DNA of 64,000 bases from Rhodospirillales bacterium (GTDB lineage: Bacteria > Pseudomonadota > Alphaproteobacteria > ATCC43930 > CGMCC-115725): positions 62,001 through 126,000 of the forward strand of contig DAHUYF010000158.1 of assembly GCA_027315365.1 (NCBI GenBank), read 5' to 3'. Within the stretch, counting starts at the first letter, position 1. Each line of letters starts with the position of its first letter. Made by a program: the position numbers and the translations under genes. This document shows, piece by piece, positions 49,992 to 62,917 of the stretch. The notes beneath the pieces were generated by a model, which was given only the letters and a program-made list of their open reading frames with translations, did no database searches and had not been told where the DNA came from.

Positions 49992-50103
49992 GCGCGGGAC
50001 GGATCGCCCGCGGCGTCCGGCTTTTGCAGGACGCTACCCGGGGCTATGATCCGCGGTGCGCCCTTTAGCGCCGCCCAGCGGCGGCGCCGGCTTGAGGATC
50101 AGG

Positions 50104-51027
50104 ATGAAGCTCATCGTGCTCGGTGCCGCCGCCGGCGGCGGTTTCCCGCAGTGGAACTGCAATTGCGATACCTGCCGGCGTGGCTGGAACGGTGCCGCGC
50201 CCGCGCAAACACAGGCCTCGGTCGCGGTGAGCGCCGACGGCGCGCGCTGGGTGCTGCTCAATGCGTCCCCCGATCTGCGCGCGCAGATCCTGGCGACGCC
50301 GGCGCTGCATCCGCGTCGGGCGGGCCGCGACAGCCCGATTGCCGGGGCGGTGCTGACCAACGGCGATGTCGACGCCGTGGCGGGGCTGCTGACCCTGCGT
50401 GAGAGCTGGCCGCTGGCGCTTTATGCGACGCCGCGCGTGCTCGACGTCGTCCGGGCCAACAGCATCTTTAATGTTCTCGCCGACGAGCATGTCGCGCGCC
50501 GGCCGATGCAGCCGGGTGCGGCGGTCGAGCTTGCCGCCAAGGACGGCACGCCGCTCGGCCTCAAGGTCGAACCTTTCACCGTGCCGGGAAAGGTGGCGCT
50601 CTATCTCGAGGACGCCGCGATCGAGCAGCGCTTGGCGCAACGCTCGGAGGACACGATCGGGTTGATGATTTCGGAGCCCGCGAGCGGCAAGCGCTTCTAC
50701 TATGTGCCGGGCTGCGCGGCGCTCGACGACGAGCTCGCGGCACGGCTCAGGGACGCGCCGCTGCTGTTCTTCGACGGAACCCTATGGCAGGACGATGAGA
50801 TGATCCGGGCCGGCCTTGGCACCAAGACCGGGCGGCGCATGGGGCATCTCAGCCTGTCCGGTGCTGCCGGCTCGATGGCCGCGCTGGCGGCGCTCGGGGT
50901 GAAGCGCAAGCTCTTCATCCACATCAACAACACCAACCCCATCCTCTGTCCGGGCTCGGCCGAACGGCGGGCCGCCGAGGCGGCTGGCTGGGAAGTGGCG
51001 CGCGACGGGCTCGAACTCGAGCTCTGA
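50104..51027 (+). CDS. pqqB: PQQ biosynthesis protein PqqB (metallo-beta-lactamase fold)
   Basis: 307 aa. ATG 50104 (MKLIVLGAAAGGGFPQWNCN) is preceded by GAGGATCAGG. The zinc-site cysteines NCDTCRRGW, and the C-terminal FIHINNTNPILCPGS, identify PqqB, which hydroxylates the Glu-Tyr intermediate before PqqC acts. In the metal-binding loop the sequence is LTNGDVDAVAGLL; family members usually have an Asp-His pair here, so the His appears replaced by Ala156-type residue, which may affect metal binding. The gene is 9 kb from pqqACDE on the opposite strand, at the end of the ABC importer genes. Confidence 0.95.
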   Translation: MKLIVLGAAAGGGFPQWNCNCDTCRRGWNGAAPAQTQASVAVSADGARWVLLNASPDLRAQILATPALHPRRAGRDSPIAGAVLTNGDVDAVAGLLTLRESWPLALYATPRVLDVVRANSIFNVLADEHVARRPMQPGAAVELAAKDGTPLGLKVEPFTVPGKVALYLEDAAIEQRLAQRSEDTIGLMISEPASGKRFYYVPGCAALDDELAARLRDAPLLFFDGTLWQDDEMIRAGLGTKTGRRMGHLSLSGAAGSMAALAALGVKRKLFIHINNTNPILCPGSAERRAAEAAGWEVARDGLELEL

Positions 51028-57741: not shown

Positions 57742-58917
57742 ATGACTAGGCAATCCGAGTACAGGGGCCGCCGAGCCCCCTCCGAAATTTTGCGAATTCT
57801 TTGCCTTTGCCTCAGCGCGCGCCAGGGCTCCGGGACGCAAGACCGCTTGCGCGATATGCTGAGGGATGGTGTCGATTGGGTTGGGCTTGCCGCGCTCGGC
57901 AATGCCCATCTCGTGGCCCCCGCCCTGTGGATCGCCCTCGAGACGAAAGGATTGCTGCCGGACGTTCCCAGCGATTTCCGCGACTATCTTGCCGCGATCC
58001 ACCGCGCGAACGCGATACGCACCGATGCCATGCGTCGCCAGGCCTGTGCTGTCGTCGCGGCGCTCAACGTCTGCGGCATCGTGCCCGTGATCCTCAAAGG
58101 CGGCGCCCGGCTGTTCGAGCCGGGTCCCAGGGACGGCTACGCGCGCATGATGGCCGACATCGACCTTCTCGTGGAGTTGCCGCGCCTGGACGAGGCGCTC
58201 GCGACGCTCCGTCGCCTCGATTATGAGATCGTGGACGTGCCACGCAGCCGCCGGAGTCATGCAACGACGCTGCGGCGCTCCGGCGAGTTGGCCGCCATCG
58301 ACCTTCACCACGACATCGGGCCGCAGCGCGATTTCATCCCCCTTGCGCGCGCCATCGCCGACGCCGTACCCGTAACCCTCGAAGACTGCCGTCTGCGTAT
58401 TCCCTCGCCGACGCACCGCGCCATGCACGTCTTCTTTCATTCTCAGATCCATGATCGCGGACACGCGGGCGGCGTCGTCCCGCTGCGCCATCTCGAGGAA
58501 TTCGCCGGCATCGTCGCTCGGCATGCGGAAACGGTCGATTGGGCGGCCATCGATCGCGCGTGCGATCGCCTGCGGTTGAGCGGCGAATGGGATGCGTGGC
58601 TCTATCTGGCGGCGCGCTGCCTTGGCGTGGTGGCGGCCACGCCGGTGCGCCGGCCTCGACGCGCGTGGCTACACTACCAGCGGTGTCTCTTCCAGCTGGA
58701 CCATGGCTGGGTCTCTGTCGTGCTGAGCGCCGGGCTCGCCGCGACCGAGCCGCTGTCCTACGCAAATATCGACTACAAATATGGTTGCGGCGCGCGCAGG
58801 CTCGGCCTGTTCCGCGCGCGCGTCGCGGAGACGTTGAGCCTTTGCGGCAAGTACCGTCATCGCATCCCCCAGCGGCTCGCCGCCGCGATCCGGGATGCGG
58901 GTGAGGGAGCGTCCTAG
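57742..58917 (+). CDS. Nucleotidyltransferase-family protein (NTP_transf_5 type)
   Basis: 391 aa from ATG 57742 (MTRQSEYRGRRAPSEIL); ATG 57703 is possible, and neither has a strong RBS. Family features are a Lys/Gly segment VPVILKGGARLFEPGPRDGY followed by the acidic pair in RMMADIDLLVELPRLDEA, then an Ile-Asp-Leu-His motif (ELAAIDLHHDIGP) and HVFFHSQIHDRGHAGG. The family is a minimal nucleotidyltransferase often encoded with HPr-kinase-like proteins in lasso-peptide or exopolysaccharide loci. It starts such a pair here, 2 bases before the next gene. Substrate unknown. Confidence 0.85.
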   Translation: MTRQSEYRGRRAPSEILRILCLCLSARQGSGTQDRLRDMLRDGVDWVGLAALGNAHLVAPALWIALETKGLLPDVPSDFRDYLAAIHRANAIRTDAMRRQACAVVAALNVCGIVPVILKGGARLFEPGPRDGYARMMADIDLLVELPRLDEALATLRRLDYEIVDVPRSRRSHATTLRRSGELAAIDLHHDIGPQRDFIPLARAIADAVPVTLEDCRLRIPSPTHRAMHVFFHSQIHDRGHAGGVVPLRHLEEFAGIVARHAETVDWAAIDRACDRLRLSGEWDAWLYLAARCLGVVAATPVRRPRRAWLHYQRCLFQLDHGWVSVVLSAGLAATEPLSYANIDYKYGCGARRLGLFRARVAETLSLCGKYRHRIPQRLAAAIRDAGEGAS

Positions 58918-58919
58918 GC

Positions 58920-60149
58920 GTGGGCAGGGGAGGGGGCCATGGCGGGCGCCTCGTGCCGGCCGAAGGCGTTCATCTCAGGCTTCTGGACGATGAAGGGTTG
59001 CTGTTCGAGCCGCGCAGCGGGACGGCTTATTTCCTCAACACGGCCGCGACCTTGATCTGGTGCCGGATCGAAGGCGAGAACAGCGTTTCTCCAGGGCGCC
59101 AAGCGGTCGCCGCGGCGAGGAAAGCAGACCGACCGGCCAAGCGTGACCGGGATATCATCTCGCAATGGCAGGCCCTCGGGTTGTTGGTCGAGCCGGGCGC
59201 CCCGCCACCTCCGGTGACATCAGCCGCGCGGAAGACGCCACCGCCGCGCGCCGGAAGGCCCGCGCCGTCGGTCGGGCCCGAGGTCGTCAGACGCCATTAT
59301 GCTCTACTCGACACCGATATCGCTCTCTCCTTCGCCGACACCGCGCTGGACGAGCTCGTCCATCCGACCTTGGCGCATCTTGAGCGCGCCACTCCGGTTG
59401 GGGACCCTCTGGTGATTACAATCGACCGTCATGGCGGCCGCTTTCGGCTGATCGAGGGCGGTGGGCTGGTGGATGCCTGCCGCAGACCGAGCGAGGTCGC
59501 GCCGCTGGTCAAATTGCACGTGGCGCGTCTGGCCGTCGATCGATATCCTCACCGGTTGGCCGTCCATGCCGGCGCCCTCGCGACCCCAGCAGGTTGCCTC
59601 TTGATGCCGGCAGCGGCCGGCAGCGGCAAGTCCGTCCTGACGGCGGCGTTGATGGCAGGCGGTTGGAAATACCTTTCCGACGATACTGCGCTGCTGGAGG
59701 ACAGGGACTTCGCGGTCGAGGGCGTCTGTTACAGTCTCACGATCAAGCAAGGCGGCTGGGATGTCGTGTCGCGGCTGCTCCCGGAGCTGCCGCGGCTGCC
59801 GGTGCACATCCGGCCCGACCGTCAGCGCGTGCGATACCTGCCCCCCATCATGCGCCAAGCCGACAGCCGGCCGGACGAGCGCAAGGTGCGCTGGATCGTG
59901 TCTCCGCGGTTTGCCAGCTCCGGCCCGCCGGCGGCACTGAAGCGGCTTGGGCGCGCCGAGGCGCTCCGGCTCGTTCTGGCGAATTGCGGCTGGGTGCGAC
60001 CGCTCGACTTGGAAACGATCGATCGGACGATCGCGTGGCTTGACGCCGTCGAGAGCTATGACCTGGTCTATTCGAGCCTTAGCGCCGCGGTTGAAGCGAT
60101 CGAAGCGATGACGATGAAGCCGCAGGCGGGAGCGGGGCGCGGCTTATGA
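58920..60149 (+). CDS. Fusion of a PqqD-like domain and an HPr-kinase-like domain
   Basis: 409 aa from GTG 58920. Residues about 10-95 resemble PqqD/RRE peptide-binding domains (VHLRLLDDEGLLFEPRSGTA, YFLNTAATLIWCRIEG), as found alone in HprK-rel systems. A Pro-rich linker (95-118) leads to an HprK-like kinase domain: RLAVHAGALATPAGCLLMP, the P-loop AAAGSGKS at 231-238, and Asp254-Asp255 in YLSDDTAL. HprK-family kinases in lasso-peptide clusters phosphorylate precursor peptides. No canonical HPr is nearby. The fused arrangement, with the recognition domain on the kinase, suggests it binds and phosphorylates a peptide. Its end overlaps the convergent autokinase gene by 6 bases. Confidence 0.82.
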   Translation: MGRGGGHGGRLVPAEGVHLRLLDDEGLLFEPRSGTAYFLNTAATLIWCRIEGENSVSPGRQAVAAARKADRPAKRDRDIISQWQALGLLVEPGAPPPPVTSAARKTPPPRAGRPAPSVGPEVVRRHYALLDTDIALSFADTALDELVHPTLAHLERATPVGDPLVITIDRHGGRFRLIEGGGLVDACRRPSEVAPLVKLHVARLAVDRYPHRLAVHAGALATPAGCLLMPAAAGSGKSVLTAALMAGGWKYLSDDTALLEDRDFAVEGVCYSLTIKQGGWDVVSRLLPELPRLPVHIRPDRQRVRYLPPIMRQADSRPDERKVRWIVSPRFASSGPPAALKRLGRAEALRLVLANCGWVRPLDLETIDRTIAWLDAVESYDLVYSSLSAAVEAIEAMTMKPQAGAGRGL

Positions 60150-62453
60150 GCCCACCGAGATTTCGGGTTCGGTATAATCGCTGTAATAGTGATAACGAAC
60201 GGAATCCCCATAGCCGTACCGCGCATGCTGTCGCGGATTGACGCGGGTGATGACGGCGCCGACGACAGTGGCGCCATCGGCCCGCAGCATCCGCAGGCCC
60301 TGCATGACCGATTTGCGCGGCGACGCCTCCCAGCGCACGAGAAACAGGGTGGCGTCGACGATGTGGGAAAGAACGAGCGCATCGGAGACGACGAGAACCG
60401 GCGGCGCGTCCAGGACGACGAGGTCGTAGCGCGCACGCATGGCCTGGAGAAAGGCTTGCATGCGCTGCGAGCCCAGGACGTCCTGGGGGTTGGCGGTCCC
60501 CACCTTCGCAGGAACGACGTCAATGCCGGATTCGTTGTCCCGCGTGATGAGAGTCTCCGGCTCCGCGCCGTCGAATAGATCGAGGAGCGTATGCTCCAGG
60601 CCGCAGCCGGTAAGCCTGGCGATCCCGGGCCGGCGCAGATCGCAGTCGACGACCAGTGCTTTGCCGCCCGAGCGTGCGACCGAGCGCGCCAGCGACAGGG
60701 ACAGCACGGTCTTGCCCTCGCCGGGCAGTGAAGATGTCACCAGCACCAGCTTCGGCGGATGATCTATGTTGGTATATCGAAACGCGGTGCGCACGGCGCG
60801 CACCGCCTCGGAATAAAGCGCCTTCGGCTCTTCTACGATCAACCTCTGCGGCGGGGCCGCGCCGCGCACGTCCGGCACCAGCCCTAGAGTCCGCAGGCCG
60901 AGCACCTGCTCGACCTGATCGCCGCCGCGGAAGCCGTTGTCGAGGCGCTCGAGAGCAAAGGCGAGGACAAGGCCGATGAAAAACGACACGACGACCGCCA
61001 TGCTCATCAGCATCGGCTTGTTGGGGTAGGACGGGCCACCCGGCGGGATGGCCGGGGCGACGAGACGGGCGTCGGGTTGCTGGAGGTCCTCTTGGGCGTT
61101 GGTCTGCTTGAACTTCGACAGGAAGCTTTCGTAAAGGACCTTGTTGGCCTGCGCCTGGCGTTCCAGCTCTCGCGCCTCGATGCTCGCCTGGTCCTGCTGC
61201 TCCGTCGAGTGTTGCAACCCGCCCAAGGCGGTGCGCAGCGCGGCCTCGCGAGCCCGTGCCACCGCGACTTCCGATGCCAGTTCCGCCATGGCCTTGTCGG
61301 TCTCCTGCTGCATCTTGCGGGCGACGTCCTGGATCTCGGCGCGCAAATTCACCATGGTCGGATGCGCCGGCTTGTAGCGCGTCATCAGCTCGGCCTGGCG
61401 CTGCATCAGCTCCGCCTCCTGCTCGCGCAGCTTCTGCAACAGCGGCGAGCTCAGCCCGGCGCCTGACCCCGCTCCGCCCTGTTTCACCTGCTCCTGAACC
61501 GCCTTGAGGCTCGCCTCCTTTTGTGCGCGGTCCCCTGCGGCGACCGCAAGTTGCGCGTTGAGTTCGGTCAACTGCTGCGCCGTGACCGTGCTGCCGCGCG
61601 TCTCCGTGATGTTGTGCTGCTCCTTGAAGAGCTGCACGGCGTTCTCGGAGTCCCGCAGCTTGTCGCGCAGCTCCGTCAGATGCTCGTTGAGCCAGGCGCT
61701 GGTGCGGCGCACCGCGTCGTACTTCAGCTCGAGCTGATTGAGCAGGTAGGTATTGGCATAGGCGTTGGCGATCTTTGCGGCGAGGTCCGCCGATTCCGCC
61801 TGGGCGTGGATGCGCAGGAGGTAGGAACGGCCGTTGGTGGAGACCGAGACATGCCCCATGAGGGACGAGGCGATAGCGCTGTAGGGGTCATTCTCGTCCG
61901 CCGTCGCGATCGGGGCGTGCAGCGGCCGACCGAAAAGGAGCCGCCGCAGCCCGGACATGGCGAAATCCAGCGGATGTCTCAAATAGTCGCCAAAACCGAC
62001 CGGGCGCAGGCTCGGATTGAATTCCGGCTCCCTCTCGAGGCGAAGCTCCCTGGCGACTTTTTCGGAGAGCGGATAGGATCGCAGCAGGTCCATTTCGCTC
62101 TGCACCACGGCGCCGTCGACCTCGAGGCCGGACATCATGTCCTCAAGGCCGAGCCGCACATGCCGTGTGTCCAGCATCACCCAGGCTTCGGCGCTGTAGC
62201 GCGGAACGAGTTGGGATACGTAGACCGCGGCCAGCGCCGTGATGACCACGACGCAACCGACGATCACCGGGAACCGGCGGCGCAGAACACCGAGCATCTC
62301 GCGGATGTCGATAACTTCCGGGTCGCCCTGCGCCTGGCGCCGCCCGGCTTGCGAATGCTTCTCAGATAGTCGATGGAGAGTATCCTCGCGCCGATTGTCG
62401 GGGCGCAGCGACGGGCGGTGATGCTCGACCTCCGCTTTCTCGCTCATAGCCAC
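60144..62453 (-). CDS. Polysaccharide co-polymerase/tyrosine autokinase (Wzz-BY-kinase)
   Basis: 769 aa from GTG 62453, preceded by AAGGGA (ATG 62447 is the alternative). A Wzz domain with two membrane helices (about 60-80 and 480-500) surrounds a long coiled coil (about 190-420) rich in Gln, Glu and Ala. The cytoplasmic kinase has Walker A SSLPGEGKTVLSLSLARSVA, Walker A' LVVDCDLRRP and Walker B DLVVLDAPPVLVV. The C-terminal 25 residues hold six Tyr in a cluster (RYGYGDSVRYHYYSDY), the autophosphorylation tail. It controls chain length in exopolysaccharide export, most likely together with the WcaJ-type transferase at 12.7 kb. Confidence 0.93.
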   Translation of the reverse strand: MAMSEKAEVEHHRPSLRPDNRREDTLHRLSEKHSQAGRRQAQGDPEVIDIREMLGVLRRRFPVIVGCVVVITALAAVYVSQLVPRYSAEAWVMLDTRHVRLGLEDMMSGLEVDGAVVQSEMDLLRSYPLSEKVARELRLEREPEFNPSLRPVGFGDYLRHPLDFAMSGLRRLLFGRPLHAPIATADENDPYSAIASSLMGHVSVSTNGRSYLLRIHAQAESADLAAKIANAYANTYLLNQLELKYDAVRRTSAWLNEHLTELRDKLRDSENAVQLFKEQHNITETRGSTVTAQQLTELNAQLAVAAGDRAQKEASLKAVQEQVKQGGAGSGAGLSSPLLQKLREQEAELMQRQAELMTRYKPAHPTMVNLRAEIQDVARKMQQETDKAMAELASEVAVARAREAALRTALGGLQHSTEQQDQASIEARELERQAQANKVLYESFLSKFKQTNAQEDLQQPDARLVAPAIPPGGPSYPNKPMLMSMAVVVSFFIGLVLAFALERLDNGFRGGDQVEQVLGLRTLGLVPDVRGAAPPQRLIVEEPKALYSEAVRAVRTAFRYTNIDHPPKLVLVTSSLPGEGKTVLSLSLARSVARSGGKALVVDCDLRRPGIARLTGCGLEHTLLDLFDGAEPETLITRDNESGIDVVPAKVGTANPQDVLGSQRMQAFLQAMRARYDLVVLDAPPVLVVSDALVLSHIVDATLFLVRWEASPRKSVMQGLRMLRADGATVVGAVITRVNPRQHARYGYGDSVRYHYYSDYTEPEISVGS

Positions 62454-62671
62454 GAGGTCCCTTTCATCTCGGCCGCTCTATCCTTCATCTCCGCGCTTGG
62501 ACGGCACCCCCGCCTCCATGCCAGGCGGTCGGGTCGACAAGACGGCCGGGGCAGAAATCGAACGCTCCCGCGCCTCCCGGATGCTCGCCCTGCTGGGGCG
62601 CATTCTCTCGCACATTGCTTTCCCAAGACTTGCGCTGGACCGTCAGGTGGGGATCAAATTCATGTCGGACC

Positions 62672-62917
62672 TCACCATCCCTTCCCATTCCCCCAGCCGT
62701 CGCCACCGTCTCCTCCTCCCCAGCAATCGTCGTCTCGGCAGTGATGGTGGTTGTGGTGATGCCCTCCGGATTGCCAGCTATCCGCCGAGGCAGGTGCGCT
62801 GAGCACGGCGGTTATCAGCGGCGGCGTCGCCACTGCGAAGCGGCCGAATTTCCGCAGAAATTCGCGGCGCTCCCGCTGCGCTTGGTCGGAAAGGGCTGGT
62901 CGCCTGCTGCGCTTCAT
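62672..62917 (-). CDS. Small Tat-type protein with His/Gly-rich tail, 81 aa
   Basis: ATG 62917, 81 aa. A twin-arginine-like leader is visible: RERREFLRKFGRFAV, then a hydrophobic stretch ending ITAVLSAPASADS, cleaved near residue 46. The mature peptide is only about 36 residues and highly unusual: GGHHHNHHHC, RDDDC, then GGGDGGDGWGNGKGW. Two Cys and six His suggest metal binding. I do not know the family, though short Tat-signal proteins of this sort can accompany HPr-rel/PqqD-type systems. It lies 218 bases upstream of the autokinase gene on the same strand, so it may be in the same operon; the RBS is weak. Confidence 0.55.
   Translation of the reverse strand: MKRSRRPALSDQAQRERREFLRKFGRFAVATPPLITAVLSAPASADSWQSGGHHHNHHHCRDDDCWGGGDGGDGWGNGKGW

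Follow-up and report, generated by a model that had tools for sequence, protein, structure and literature searches.

A candidate peptide-phosphorylation system pairing an RRE-HprK fusion kinase with a small Tat-like leader peptide in Proteobacteria

Near the end of a 64,000-nucleotide stretch of the genome of a Rhodospirillales bacterium (the window, part of the 144 kb contig C79 in a 4.97 Mb genome), three genes encode an NTP_transf_5 nucleotidyltransferase-fold protein, an HprK-type kinase fused to a recognition element (RRE) of the kind found in ribosomally synthesized and post-translationally modified peptide (RiPP) pathways, and an 81-residue peptide. Together they probably constitute a RiPP-like peptide-modification system in which the leader of the peptide would be bound, a serine (Ser) of its core phosphorylated and then decorated, and the product exported by the twin-arginine translocation (Tat) machinery. 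The most likely action of the enzyme pair is to place a phosphate, followed by a further group, on a small and probably secreted peptide. That the 81-residue peptide itself is the kinase substrate we regard as a good but far from certain bet; which Ser is modified, what the second modification is and what role the product may have at the cell surface are progressively less certain. The anatomy of the locus, the intact active sites, the co-occurrence of kinase and peptide and the leader and core pattern of the peptides were all obtained by computation.

A first-pass annotation of the window had placed four genes at this locus, and open reading frames (ORFs) and family matches bore out the presence of all of them. 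The NTP_transf_5 gene (57742..58917, + strand; 391 residues; PF14907, 116 bits) is followed after two bases by the fusion kinase gene (58920..60149, + strand; 409 residues; TIGR04352, 98 bits). The peptide gene (62672..62917, - strand), homologues of which adjoin the kinase elsewhere, lies on the strand opposite to this pair, with the gene of a Wzz/GNVR polysaccharide tyrosine autokinase between them, as had been described. The autokinase gene is co-directional with the peptide gene and lies downstream of it across a gap of 218 bp.

Linkage of the peptide to the kinase

The first-pass annotation had made its idea depend on co-occurrence of the small peptide with the kinase in other genomes, and the comparisons came out in its favor at genomic loci, on plasmids and among related genomes. 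A peptide profile built from four seeds (the window, L023, L026, and L027) was run on 17 non-seed kinase loci, a set that excluded the seeds, L030 (with a kinase truncated by the contig end), L078 (identified via its peptide), L118, and five HprK-only loci. Peptide matches (E<=0.031) were identified at 11 of the 17 loci, in each case no farther than 1.2 kb from the kinase, whereas 151 kb of sequence at distances above 3 kb gave no match below E 0.5. Likewise, five loci around other P-loop or HprK matches of the window genome gave no peptide match. A search with one kinase yielded 14 plasmid records, pSymB of Sinorhizobium meliloti included, and all 14 contain the peptide (E<=0.004; the frame is split in two of them), although by our reading these represent only seven or eight independent cases because several are near-copies.

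The order of the genes is NTP-kinase-peptide in Pseudomaricurvus, Rhodocyclaceae and Methylomicrobium (L080, L081, and L082) and kinase-NTP-peptide in S. meliloti, and the peptide gene is convergent to the enzyme pair in L023, L027, and L093-L096. On pSymB of S. meliloti strains Ak57 and USDA1021 (L134:4521-7204 and L138:3556-6704) the kinase, the NTP gene and the Tat-leader peptide stand in a row. In the pSymB record NZ_CP021802.1 (S. meliloti 1021) the peptide lies at ~538299-538610, immediately preceded by the kinase and NTP genes. In Ensifer adhaerens Casida A (L141 and L142, 3980-6645) the kinase and peptide frames are both split, as if they had decayed together. In L096 a stretch of N in the draft sequence cuts off the RRE of the kinase, and in L117 the profile failed to recognize it.

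A census of whole genomes pointed in the same direction. Among 386 genomes of the class, the kinase was found in 12 (E<=1e-15; a lower bound, as no more than four candidates were scored per genome), the peptide in 11 (E<1e-6, a cut-off set afterwards; 21 genomes match at E<=0.01) and both in eight (Fisher p 7e-12; 2.7e-6 once the four seed genomes are removed; both values uncorrected for kinship). Of the three genomes in which only the peptide had been found, two gave kinases on a more sensitive search: a full fusion kinase in G380 and, in G157, HprK, PqqD, and NTP genes as a split set. In G409, which was found via its peptide, the kinase and NTP gene adjoin the peptide. Within the order of the window's own organism two of 43 genomes carry the kinase at E<=1e-15; in another class of the phylum, that of G453, it was found in one genome of 60, G453 itself.

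Among 81 relatives of G215, the RRE-HprK kinase and the peptide were present in the same five genomes and both were absent from the remaining 76, two of which (G043 and G049) have an HprK-only match. Because the profile used there (A6) includes rows from those five genomes, the informative part of this comparison is that no peptide occurred without the kinase. G815 is the sole genome of the large genus g74 to have either gene, which suggests that the kinase and peptide move together; a stretch of N in its draft disrupts the kinase frame, the RRE start being recognizable before the gap.

The window genome has a single peptide copy. Elsewhere, copies also lie away from the kinase: two of three in G401, all three in G408, both in G380, and all four in G114, where the kinase contig is 6.7 kb long. 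Inspection by eye of 11 loci of such scattered copies revealed no common neighbor, except one shared by the related genomes G401 and G149. Scattered copies (L066-L077) mostly have no kinase nearby, number up to four per genome (G114), and are in some cases rich in cysteine (Cys).

The fusion kinase and its nucleotidyltransferase partner

The fusion of a PqqD-like domain to an HprK-like domain, as first annotated, was upheld. The PqqD signal was weak when the single sequence was used (Pfam, E 0.058; TIGR04353, 17 bits; TbiB1, E 0.21) and strong with a 14-row profile (A5), for which the top PDB matches were TbiB1 (E 2.8e-8) and TfuB1 (E 1.9e-6), both RREs of lasso-peptide pathways, followed by the HPr kinase 3tqf (E 8e-5); the match to the lasso RREs covers profile positions 19-94. 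In the AlphaFold model of the kinase (pLDDT 77) residues 18-85 form three strands and three helices, the beta3-alpha3 topology of an RRE, and Foldseek identified TbiB1 (5v1v; E 2.1e-3, probability 1.00) at rank 22, behind many PEPCK entries. Judged by its modeled winged-helix fold and the profile, the N-terminal domain (residues ~14-88; 58959..59183, + strand) is a predicted lasso-type RRE, like TbiB1 and TfuB1 (PDB 5v1u and 6jx3), although the latter are discrete proteins of a lasso pathway. The RRE structures that it matches were determined together with lasso leaders. The ORF at 50056-51027 has a metallo-beta-lactamase fold (Pfam Lactamase_B_2), adjoins a sorbosone dehydrogenase-like gene, and encodes what we take to be a PqqB-like protein. 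A link to pyrroloquinoline quinone synthesis through this ORF was rejected because the N-terminal domain of the kinase is closest to the lasso RREs.

The remainder of the model matches the PEPCK/HprK fold (PEPCK 2pxz, Z 15, root mean square deviation 5.3, 271 residues aligned), which reflects kinship within that fold and not carboxykinase function. Structure, profile and conserved residues together support an HprK/PEPCK-like kinase domain (residues ~123-400; 59286..60119, + strand). Its match to HprK_rel_A (TIGR04352) spans residues 208-397 at 98.1 bits, below the curated cut-off of 200 bits, so that by this cut-off the window kinase is not a member of TIGR04352. A first scan of the genome contigs with the single window kinase as query had given no match.

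In an alignment of 30 kinases, assembled without the HprK-only kinases, L030, L031, L096 and some plasmid near-copies, residues H216, G234, G236, K237, and D254 were identical throughout; position 255 was D in 23 and E in seven, and position 238 was S in 22 and T in eight. The Walker A motif of the window kinase, GSGKS, comprises residues 234-238 (59619..59633, + strand). An inactive Walker A region would have told against the original idea, and the conservation of G234, G236, and K237 in every kinase favored it. According to PMC9266682, a His-Lys-Asp-Asp (H-K-D-D) set is essential in lasso-tailoring kinases, and because these residues are kept in the aligned kinases the active site of the window kinase is intact as judged by sequence.

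The NTP_transf_5 gene was located no more than 1.7 kb from the kinase in 39 of 43 kinase loci (25 genomic loci, L078, L116-L118, and 14 plasmid records). It was not found near the kinase in L022, L024, and L030, all with contig ends close by, or in L117. The motif K-G-x(n)-R-x3-D-x-D was kept in all seven aligned homologues, and the model of the window protein resembles the nucleotidyltransferases ANT(2'')-Ia, MenT1, and MenT3 (Z 12.4 to 9.3); an FKRP-like identity, for which Z was only 7.9, is not claimed. At L031:8080-10281 a single protein of 733 residues combines NTP_transf_5, a PqqD-like part and an HprK part, and this triple fusion argues for joint action of the three. A gene for an FkbM-type methyltransferase, possibly a further tailoring enzyme, adjoins the kinase in two related genomes (L093:9413-10168 and L027:8584-9339).

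Leader and core of the peptides

The peptides combine a constant leader with a changeable tail. In 29 aligned peptides the leader motif RRxFLxxxG[KR] had its second R in all 29, its first R in 28, F, L, and G in 27 each, and a Pro in 26. Mean pairwise identity reached 55% over the leader, compared with 14% in the residues preceding it and 32% across the tails, which are of low complexity. The tails are His/Gly-rich in the window and L023, of the form NNGFGNGxxDGxPG in many alphaproteobacteria, built of Pro/Thr repeats in L082, and Cys-rich in L077. The window peptide had been described as a Tat-type, His/Gly-rich protein; the conserved leader is indeed common to the family, but the His-rich tail (in the window, a His/Gly/Trp-rich one) is present in some relatives only and was discarded as a common feature.

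In the window peptide, the twin-arginine motif RRxFL (residues 17-21; 62855..62869, - strand) precedes a hydrophobic stretch, and the genome has a TatC gene (228 bits). Based on this motif and gene, we infer that the peptide is exported by the Tat route.

A signal-peptidase-like site with Ser at +2, written [AVSGT]-x-A-x-S, was identified in 28 of 41 peptides (mean 9.5 and maximum 20 in 3000 shuffles); the pattern was picked after reading the sequences, with the cleavage site placed by eye. The 41 peptides exclude L137 (a duplicate of L136), L141 and L142 (broken), L024 (cut), and an additional weak copy in L074, and retain near-identical plasmid copies. In the window peptide the site reads A-S-A|D-S-W-Q-S-G-G. 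Ser47 (62777..62779, - strand), at +2 after the predicted A-S-A cleavage site, fits the pattern and is a candidate phosphorylation site; Ser50 of QSGG (62768-62770, - strand), which resembles a common S-G, is an alternative candidate. For comparison, the proven phosphorylation site of LppA is given in PMC13381572 as Ser3 of the core.

Taken together, we propose that the RRE domain would bind the leader of the small peptide and that the fused HprK domain would phosphorylate, while still in the cytoplasm, a Ser with which the core begins, Ser47 or Ser50. Onto this phosphate the nucleotidyltransferase would then add a group, whether a nucleotide, a sugar or a sugar-phosphate. Because the leader may also serve as a Tat-type signal peptide, the modified peptide would leave the cytoplasm through the housekeeping Tat machinery, with an ordinary signal peptidase removing the leader.

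Relation to known systems

The proposed system is similar to that of the linear polyphosphorylated peptides (LPP) as described by Popov et al. 2026 (PMC13381572). Both have an HprK-like kinase, which in the window has intact catalytic residues, together with an RRE and an NTP transferase; LPP systems have no lasso cyclase, and none was seen among the neighbors scanned here. Both have precursors with a constant N-terminus and a variable C-terminus, a Ser near the start of the core that is proven as the modified residue in LPP and a candidate here, frequent proximity to polysaccharide loci, and processing (predicted here) by a signal-peptidase-like enzyme. However, that source describes the LPP systems as restricted to Bacillota, with a discrete RRE, their own SpI peptidase, an MsbA-like exporter and the leader YxxPxVLxHQxIxFETxxS, whereas the window system is proteobacterial, has its RRE fused to the kinase and its RRxFLxxxG[KR] leader Tat-like, shows no dedicated peptidase or exporter among the neighbors scanned, and in some genomes has scattered precursors. 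The system is set apart from LPP because two defining LPP features are lacking: the RRE is fused and not discrete, and the LPP leader motif is absent from both the 81-residue peptide and the A6 consensus. No word beginning with Proteobacteria or Pseudomonadota occurs in the text of PMC13381572.

The neighborhood was scanned for further components in 19 genes (10 ORFs at 47.4-57.0 kb and nine of the window continuation, L010), a selection of the surrounding ORFs. Consistent with the original description of the locus, none of the 19 belonged to the lasso cyclase or B2 families; the rest of the genome was not searched. The same neighbors included no SpI-like leader peptidase and no MsbA-like exporter, for which no genome-wide search was made. 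Pfam assigns the transporters encoded at 47-57 kb to importer types, and a gene for a Peptidase_C93 transglutaminase-like protease lies 4.3 kb past the end of the window.

Phosphorylated lasso peptides offer a second comparison (PadeK/ThcoK, SyanK, and PsmK with PsmN; PMC9266682). There, too, an H-K-D-D kinase is paired with a nucleotidyltransferase, and phosphate is added first and a hexose afterwards. They differ in that a lasso precursor is modified at its C-terminal Ser, with lasso machinery present, and no such machinery was seen among the 19 scanned neighbors. As SyanK is reported from the proteobacterium Sphingobium, kinases of this type were already known in the phylum, and LppK and PadeK are reported to phosphorylate peptide Ser (PMC13381572; PMC9266682).

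The HPr-rel-A system of NCBIfam (TIGR04352 kinase and TIGR04353 PqqD protein) represents the same kinase lineage and has the NTP gene adjacent, but its HprK part is not fused to an RRE. At five HprK-only loci with an NTP gene (L032, L033, and L097-L099; L118, which starts at a contig end, was left out) a protein of 75 to ~216 residues with a Tat-like signal is encoded near the kinase, three of these being identified by motif scan, two by eye and none by profile. Based on these five loci, the link between kinase and Tat-signal protein may hold for the whole HPr-rel-A group. In the open-licence literature we found no paper on HPr-rel-A kinases or on a kinase/Tat-peptide pairing.

Alternative explanations

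Several observations weigh against the proposal that the peptide is modified by the enzyme pair and exported by the Tat machinery. No peptide was found near the kinase at L025, L031, L101, and L116 or on the short contigs L022 and L028, although copies exist elsewhere in the genomes of L025 (G408), L116 (G380, a genome chosen for its peptide), and L028 (G114). The 100% complete genome G149 has the peptide and no kinase at E<=1e-8. The A-x-A-x-S pattern is missing from 13 of the 41 peptides, including all three from beta- and gammaproteobacteria. With regard to export, the window peptide matched no Tat model up to E 1, and relatives match such models only below the cut-off (e.g., L080, 14.6 against 16.7 bits). 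The [Y/W]xxP motif that lasso and LPP RREs bind was not seen by eye in the window leader. Lastly, PMC13381572 reports no detectable effect of LppN.

Some of these findings would fit a different arrangement, in which the small Tat protein (e.g., a periplasmic sensor or regulator) is inherited along with the enzymes without being their substrate, and these modify something else, such as a carrier protein or a polysaccharide enzyme. The few kinase loci without a nearby peptide and the peptide of G149 agree with it, as do exopolysaccharide genes near several loci. We nevertheless consider this arrangement unlikely, since an RRE fused to a kinase implies a peptide substrate, and a conserved leader with a variable tail, in several copies for the one kinase found (G401 and G408), has the look of a precursor family.

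Control of exopolysaccharide, with the HprK-like kinase or the peptide acting on the neighboring Wzz autokinase (60144..62453, - strand; PF02706, PF13807, PF13614, and TIGR01005), appears more improbable still. In its favor, the peptide and Wzz genes share a strand, with the peptide gene upstream, Wzz/autokinase homologues occur near the kinase in L100 and L116 (6.3 kb off) as well as in the window, fragments are present in L101 and L025, export or sugar genes are found in L025, L101, and L023, and a lipopolysaccharide gene adjoins L133. However, only three of the 43 kinase loci have the homologue nearby, no Wzz homologue was present in the stretch read at most loci, including all 14 plasmid loci, and three of four annotated plasmid loci have no polysaccharide gene. 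As the autokinase is not conserved, it was rejected as a part of the system. Its partnership with the kinase, which the first-pass annotation had suggested, was accordingly abandoned, whereas the remainder of that idea, a kinase/nucleotidyltransferase pair with a small Tat-type peptide and no lasso cyclase, is strongly supported by the co-occurrence and the intact active site. At most, the autokinase is a sign of an exopolysaccharide setting, which by an uncounted survey of the loci is recurrent and not general; LPP clusters also occur near capsule loci, according to PMC13381572. A second Wzz autokinase, 56% identical to that of the window, is encoded ~8 kb past the window end (L010:8039-10309).

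That the leader is an ordinary Tat signal and the peptide accompanies the kinase by chance of mobile-element history is very improbable: the patchy distribution and plasmid carriage do point to horizontal transfer, but the linkage is tight, extends beyond a single class and holds for three or more gene orders, against no match below E 0.5 in 151 kb of flanking DNA.

Implications

If the small peptide is a substrate of the RRE-HprK kinase, as we favor, the recurrence of the trio in many distant bacteria, including S. meliloti, would indicate that a family of modified secreted peptides has been overlooked. More speculatively, and with doubt outweighing confidence, these could be undescribed and widespread secreted phosphopeptides of Proteobacteria, in which one signal serves as both RRE leader and Tat signal, so that the peptides are already modified on export. 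A single enzyme pair would then act on several precursors encoded at scattered sites, and the peptide would be tied to surface polysaccharide through a nucleotide or glycan attached to its phosphate.

For the HPr-rel-A kinase group, these analyses name a candidate substrate and a candidate Ser. They open the function of the NTP_transf_5 partner to testing in S. meliloti, a standard laboratory organism, where the genes are carried on pSymB. They also suggest that an LPP-like pathway, described as Bacillota-restricted, has a proteobacterial counterpart, and that a signal peptide can act as a RiPP leader as well.

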